A DNA stretch of 64,000 bases from an uncultured Spirochaetaceae bacterium (GTDB lineage: Bacteria > Spirochaetota > Spirochaetia > Sphaerochaetales > Sphaerochaetaceae): NCBI GenBank assembly GCA_944389275.1, contig CALXLT010000012.1:1-64000 (forward strand), given 5' to 3'. The position numbers were made by a program, and so were the translations under genes. Shown piece after piece: positions 63,430-64,000 of the stretch. Below the pieces are notes generated by a model, which was not told the DNA's origin, ran no database searches, and was given only the letters and a program-made list of their open reading frames with translations. Within the stretch, counting starts at the first letter, position 1, and each line of letters starts with the position of its first letter.

Positions 63430-63646
63430 ATAATCTTTCATTTATTGGTGATTAAGACGGAAAACAGCGGTTAATCGCCAAGATATTAATGATTATCCTA
63501 CCGTTTATCATTTGGAAATCGCATATAACAAAATAGTTTCAAAAAGGTTACAGCGAATATAAATCAGTAATCTATATATTTAAAATACAACAAGATAATC
63601 TCAAATTTAAATTAGATTCAATTTCTGTAAAAAGTTCAAAAAGTAC

Positions 63647-63677
63647 TTGACAAATATGTACTGGGGGGGGGTAGCCT
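63647..63677 (+). promoter_or_regulatory. Promoter with poly-G spacer, candidate phase-variable
   Basis: A perfect -35 TTGACA (63647-63652) is followed by a 19-bp spacer and TAGCCT (63672-63677), the only -10-like hexamer at usable distance. The spacer contains a run of nine G (63663-63671). AGTAC (63642-63646) and GTACT (63658-63662) form a short inverted repeat around the -35. Loss of two G would give the optimal 17-bp spacing, so G-run length could switch transcription of the lipoprotein gene. Confidence 0.55.
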
Positions 63678-63716
63678 TAGTGTATCAAAAATTGATTTCG
63701 GAGGATTTTGGAAATT

Positions 63717-64000
63717 ATGAAGAAATTCATTATTGCTATGCTTTGCGTAGCCGTATTGTTCGGTTTCGCGGCATGTGACAACAGCACGGGCAATCCTGCT
63801 GACACGGATACAACAACATCCACACCAGTATCTGAAGCAACTCAGCTGAGATCTGCTGCTGCATCTCTTGCGAATTGGTTCTATTCCACAGTAGATGACG
63901 GAAAGGCACCAATTGATATTAAGGGAATCATTGAAGGTGCAGATAAGTATAATGCGTCATTTGCTGATGGTAAGCTTACTATCACAAAGTCATATCCTGC
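63717..64000 (+). CDS. Lipoprotein, start only (runs off the window)
   Basis: The first 94 codons of a lipoprotein. A signal peptide (KKFIIAMLCVAVLFGFAAC) ends in a lipobox with Cys20, followed by a Thr/Ser/Pro-rich linker (TDTTTSTPVSEA) and the beginning of a globular domain (NWFYSTVDDGKAP). The family is not recognised. GGAGG lies about 17 nt before the ATG, with a nearer weak site GGA. It is the likely target of the poly-G-spaced promoter. Confidence 0.75.
   Translation, partial: MKKFIIAMLCVAVLFGFAACDNSTGNPADTDTTTSTPVSEATQLRSAAASLANWFYSTVDDGKAPIDIKGIIEGADKYNASFADGKLTITKSYP

Follow-up and report, generated by a model that had tools for sequence, protein, structure and literature searches.

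The window, by which we mean the whole 64,000-nucleotide stretch of DNA analysed here, ends inside a lipoprotein gene on the forward strand that is preceded by a compact promoter-like block. The -35 hexamer TTGACA (63647-63652), found identically at 13 places in this genome and at 219 in its genus, follows an A-rich block (63626-63646) whose consensus ends in CAAAAAGCAC. A 10-bp linker, AATATGTACT (63653-63662), with an ACY motif conserved immediately 5' of the tract, leads into a homopolymer of nine guanines (63663-63671), the candidate slippage tract, which abuts the -10 hexamer TAGCCT (63672-63677; genus consensus TAGNCT) to give a spacer of 19 bp. Further downstream, a ribosome-binding site, GGAGG (63700-63704), lies within a conserved leader, TTTCGGAGGATTTTGGAA, and the open reading frame starts with an ATG at 63717 and has the N terminus MKKFIIAMLCVAVLFGFAACDN, with a lipoprotein signal peptide, MKKFIIAMLCVAVLFGFAAC (63717-63776), and a lipobox whose cysteine is at position 20. 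The end of the window cuts this gene (63717-64000, continuing to contig position 64955), and the contig holds it in full (C12:63717-64955; 412 aa). The first-pass annotation had described the same order of TTGACA, a G9 spacer, TAGCCT at 19 bp and a lipoprotein gene downstream, and the sequence confirms it.

The encoded protein belongs to no Pfam family, and an NCBIfam search returned signal-peptide matches only, below the cut-off. Its structure model is of low confidence, with a beta-rich N-terminal half and poor quality beyond, and a fold search with this model found no match. Full-length relatives are present in the same genome and in one other member of the genus only; in all other relatives the match is confined to the N-terminal part.

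Runs of at least eight guanines give two overlapping matches within the 64 kb against 1.59 expected by chance. Such a run alone is unremarkable at this scale; the combined motif is beyond chance. The -10 hexamer TAGCCT agrees with TATAAT at 3/6 positions, which may count against reading the site as a contingency promoter.

We searched the whole genome for TTGACA followed within 20 bases by at least eight guanines and retrieved 13 distinct places, the window site included. Of the 21 tracts of at least eight guanines in the genome, 17, by reading of the loci, occupy promoter-type positions (13 with a perfect TTGACA), meaning that they lie before a lipoprotein gene or belong to the same promoter block at a contig end, a decayed gene or a prophage insertion. 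The other four lie outside promoters, one of them in frame within a phage baseplate gene. Comparison of the sequence stretches around the promoter sites, which are dispersed across many contigs, separates two sub-families, a TAGCCT type that includes the window gene and a type with a TATAAT-like -10, TATAAT itself serving as the -10 at a site on contig C38. The genome contains about 17 similar promoters that probably switch by tract length. At C15:11699-11724 (L041) we find a copy with a G10 tract and a damaged -10, AGCCTT, from which the downstream lipoprotein gene has gone, apparently a decayed locus. Two further sites, C20:17215 and C53:53853, have the interrupted tracts GGGGGTGGG and GGGGTGGGGG before lipoprotein genes with a spacing of exactly 19 bp, and these are natural non-slipping controls.

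The same design extends across the genus. A strict pattern (TTGACA-N5..11-H-G7+-TANNNT, which places the G tract 6-12 bp after TTGACA) gave 219 matches, summed from the table, in 33 of the 48 genus members, at most 13 in any one genome, and its reversed form gave none in the 48 genomes, ruling out a chance origin of the combined motif. An A-rich stretch (45-76% A among 96 genus promoters) lies 4 to 9 bases 5' of TTGACA. Eight loci of genus members without the main motif (L010, L016, L020, L281, L286, L289, L297 and L299) have poly-G near lipoprotein starts in other positions, either immediately after TTGACA or just 5' of the start codon.

Other families of the Spirochaetia have the promoter too. 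Of the 395 genomes in a sample covering the class, 84 carry one match or more, as do 31 of the 133 genera. The reversed control gave three matches in this sample, and some of the forward matches outside the main groups have loosely placed -10 hexamers and precede non-lipoprotein genes, so several of the single matches outside these groups are probably due to chance. A scan of 84,980 species genomes yielded 72 stretches, 69 of them in Spirochaetaceae/Spirochaetales records, including three from Candidatus Ornithospirochaeta stercoravium. Together, the 13 matches in the genome itself, the 219 in the genus and those across the class rule out a one-off tract. A Treponema-like family contains up to 20 promoter sites per genome, and one of its genomes with the promoter, carrying 10 tracts, is very probably that of the Treponema succinifaciens type strain 6091T (PMC3156407).

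The genes downstream are mostly lipoprotein genes. Under one strict lipobox rule, so that the calls are pattern-based, a lipoprotein gene follows 74 of the 81 genus sites for which sufficient downstream sequence was available, vs 2 of 52 open reading frames in the rest of the window, a contrast whose binomial value overstates the case because the paralogues are not independent. Seven sites fail the rule; at one of them the gene does encode a lipoprotein, overlooked by the rule, and another is interrupted by a prophage. An initial look at the Treponema-like family indicated some non-lipoprotein targets too; in one genome of this family (G214, locus L255), a promoter with a G9 spacer precedes an apparent membrane sensor or chemoreceptor rather than a lipoprotein.

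Promoter and signal peptide are conserved between these loci, whereas the mature proteins have diverged. Among eight paralogues in the genome, mean identity is 75% over the 76 bp before the tract, 82% in the leader and 72% in the signal peptide, and 26% in the mature protein. Duplication alone might account for the spread of the promoters with their genes, the G tract being a functionless hitchhiker and its differences in length partly homopolymer assembly error. Paralogues whose promoter sequences are identical over as much as about 120 bp, at which contigs end, fit this explanation, which we consider very improbable since the architecture recurs with different flanks, linkers and -10 hexamers in 33 species and several families, precedes lipoproteins at all 20 Treponema-like sites retrieved, and is also present in a closed chromosome of the Treponema-like family.

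The first-pass annotation proposed a tract of variable length, and the length indeed differs both between paralogues and between orthologues, as read from assemblies that are mostly metagenomic and in which a homopolymer length is an assembly consensus. Among 21 promoter pairs, not all independent, with flanks at least 85% identical over about 120 bp, 17 have unequal tracts; at 94% flank identity or more, the tract is unequal in six of seven pairs, and the flanks have two indels in total over the seven. Three Treponema-like orthologues, whose proteins are 84-90% identical, have tracts of G10, G9 and G8, and the G10 and G9 versions share 108 of 110 upstream bases. A homopolymer between a recognisable -35 and -10 thus varies in length between paralogues and orthologues while its flanks do not, and from these alignments the tract appears as the fastest-changing part of the promoter. 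A MutS gene for mismatch repair was found, so a general repair defect need not be invoked. Two IMG/VR scans for tract variants within the species returned one unrelated match (G5) and then none. Three contigs of another genome (G049; C13, C26 and C27, loci L145, L148 and L149) carry one promoter in two forms, with G9 and with G10, and end exactly where two upstream contexts diverge. A sequenced population with mixed tract lengths could explain these contig ends; we reject them as proof of such a mixture and keep them as a hint.

Variation in the tract changes the distance between the two hexamers. Across the genus, spacers of 14 to 23 bp occur, most often 19 bp; those of the Treponema-like family measure 14 to 20 bp, most often 16 bp. 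This spread bears on the possibility of a fixed, regulated promoter, in which a regulator or alternative sigma factor in control of a lipoprotein regulon would use the G tract as its binding site or as a structural spacer, and the length differences would be neutral slippage noise. A fixed promoter would account for the strong consensus on either side of the tract (ACY before, TAGNCT after), the sharp peaks at a G9 tract and a 19-bp spacer, the two interrupted tracts at exactly 19 bp and the sharing of one promoter type by many genes. A site of fixed register should not, however, tolerate such a range of spacers, and nearly all tracts are pure although a single base change would stabilise them; we therefore regard a fixed promoter as unlikely.

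Alternatively, the tract may act at or after transcription start, through RNA stability, start-site choice or open-complex formation, as has been discussed for tprL of Treponema pallidum, rather than through the spacing of -35 and -10. Transcription of tprL starts at the fourth base 3' of the poly-G (PMC7864442), and some tracts in the genus adjoin the start codon or directly follow TTGACA. The placement of TTGACA 6-12 bp before the tract and of TANNNT directly or closely after it, at 219 sites vs none for the reversed order, is by contrast what a spacer predicts, and we give action at the start a low probability. Control by spacing is the likely mechanism.

Which tract length corresponds to the active promoter is a separate matter. 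The first-pass annotation had named G7 as the strong state, a prediction that borrows the 17-bp optimum of Escherichia coli, whose promoters reach maximum strength with a 17-bp spacer and remain strong from 15 to 19 bp (PMC8695583). We tallied 72 listed native TTGACA-N-TATAAT sites of the genus by spacer length (14 bp, 8; 15 bp, 12; 16 bp, 18; 17 bp, 1; 18 bp, 5; 19 bp, 14; 20 bp, 10; 21 bp, 4) and saw no peak at 17 bp among them, with under half as many matches in the reversed control; these sites do not confirm a 17-bp optimum for the genus. Tract lengths in the genus (G7-G12) peak sharply at 9 rather than spreading, which may likewise count against a contingency promoter, and this peak, together with the two interrupted tracts at 19 bp, suggests that 19 bp may be a working state rather than an off state. 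With the Treponema-like mode at 16 bp as well, G7 as the strong or on state seems to us unproven, and we do not accept it.

In all likelihood, a contingency (phase-variable) promoter occupies the window site and belongs to a dispersed set that serves lipoprotein genes. The architecture, its copy number, its class of target, the tract-length differences between near-identical flanks and the conservation of the tract across species are all read directly from the sequence. The members of the set share a cassette of the A-rich block, TTGACA, a linker ending in ACY, G7-12, TANNNT, a leader with the ribosome-binding site and the signal peptide, behind which the mature proteins have diverged nearly completely. 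Slippage would alter the number of guanines within populations and, through promoter spacing, transcription. With each promoter switching independently, a cell would express its own combination of lipoproteins, presumably displayed on the surface, which may help it to adhere or to escape phages, predators or the immunity of the host. The case for phase variation is stronger than first proposed because the promoter belongs to a genome-wide and genus-wide set.

The mechanism itself is already known from several systems, and what stands out here is how many promoters are of this kind, that they are dedicated to lipoprotein genes and that a cultivable relative has them as well. The vlp genes of Mycoplasma hyorhinis form a clustered family with poly-A tracts and encode repeat-bearing proteins. 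These surface lipoprotein genes, and also maa2 and vmm, are switched by insertions and deletions in the -35/-10 spacer (PMC2268961). They share with our set the combination of lipoprotein genes and a variable spacer, whereas our tracts are poly-G rather than poly-A and our sites are dispersed over the genome rather than clustered, an arrangement that is not of the vlp type. In Neisseria meningitidis, porA has poly-G between -35 and -10, and its expression is graded 11G > 10G > 9G (PMC3639595). The architecture supports the first-pass comparison with such a porA-type spacer homopolymer, here before a lipoprotein; porA, unlike our set, is one porin gene in an unrelated lineage.

The proposed parallel with Treponema was apt, but the tpr genes are not its closest case; that is tp0126, which has the tract inside the spacer (PMC7864442). 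The tpr genes (tprE/G/J and tprL) have 7-11 guanines, mostly 9, and at tprL the tract varies in vivo and affects reporter expression (PMC7864442). The nature of the tract and its length range are similar to ours. The tprL tract, however, overlaps the -10 region by the start and the targets are Tpr outer-membrane proteins, whereas our tracts end directly before TANNNT and have TTGACA upstream. The T. pallidum gene tp0126, an OmpW homologue, has poly-G between -35 and -10 and is transcribed best at a 17-nt spacing (PMC7864442). Both cases involve poly-G in the spacer, a spirochaete and an envelope protein, in our set a putative one, but tp0126 is a single outer-membrane protein gene of a pathogen, and our promoters serve many dispersed lipoprotein genes of gut spirochaetes through a shared promoter and signal-peptide cassette with a modal spacer of 19. 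The literature searched, which covered few subscription papers, contained no description of poly-G promoters of this kind in gut spirochaetes.

More tentatively, a portable cassette of poly-G promoter, leader and signal peptide may capture unrelated lipoprotein bodies and place each under independent slippage control, which would amount to a large combinatorial system of coat variation. Two or more families of spirochaetes would share this system, and it would be either ancestral to the poly-G control seen in T. pallidum or convergent with it. Among spirochaetes, T. pallidum is known to switch promoters by poly-G, but it is difficult to study. Genomes of commensal gut spirochaetes contain the same promoter design in many copies, among them the genome that matches the type strain of T. 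succinifaciens, a cultivable and non-pathogenic commensal of the pig gut, and a cultivable carrier would allow direct measurement of how fast, in which direction and to what end poly-G tracts switch. The occurrence of the design in commensals points to coat switching as something that host-associated spirochaetes do in general, rather than an invention of virulence.

One of the promoter sites lies beside a prophage of about 35.7 kb (C39, ~34.83-70.55 kb; L050, L051 and L325) with integrase, repressor-like and helicase-like genes and a baseplate protein. A G9 promoter flanks one end of the prophage and a promoter-less lipoprotein gene, whose product is 39% identical to the window protein, flanks the other. 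The sequence TCGGAGGATTT, the ribosome-binding site of the window lipoprotein family, is present at both junctions; it is apparently there that the phage integrates, separating the promoter from its gene. Within this prophage, at ~37.7-38.4 kb on the minus strand (L050:4687-5358), the gene for the baseplate protein (Gp10_C) has an in-frame G10 tract near codon 24, a possible translational slippage switch.
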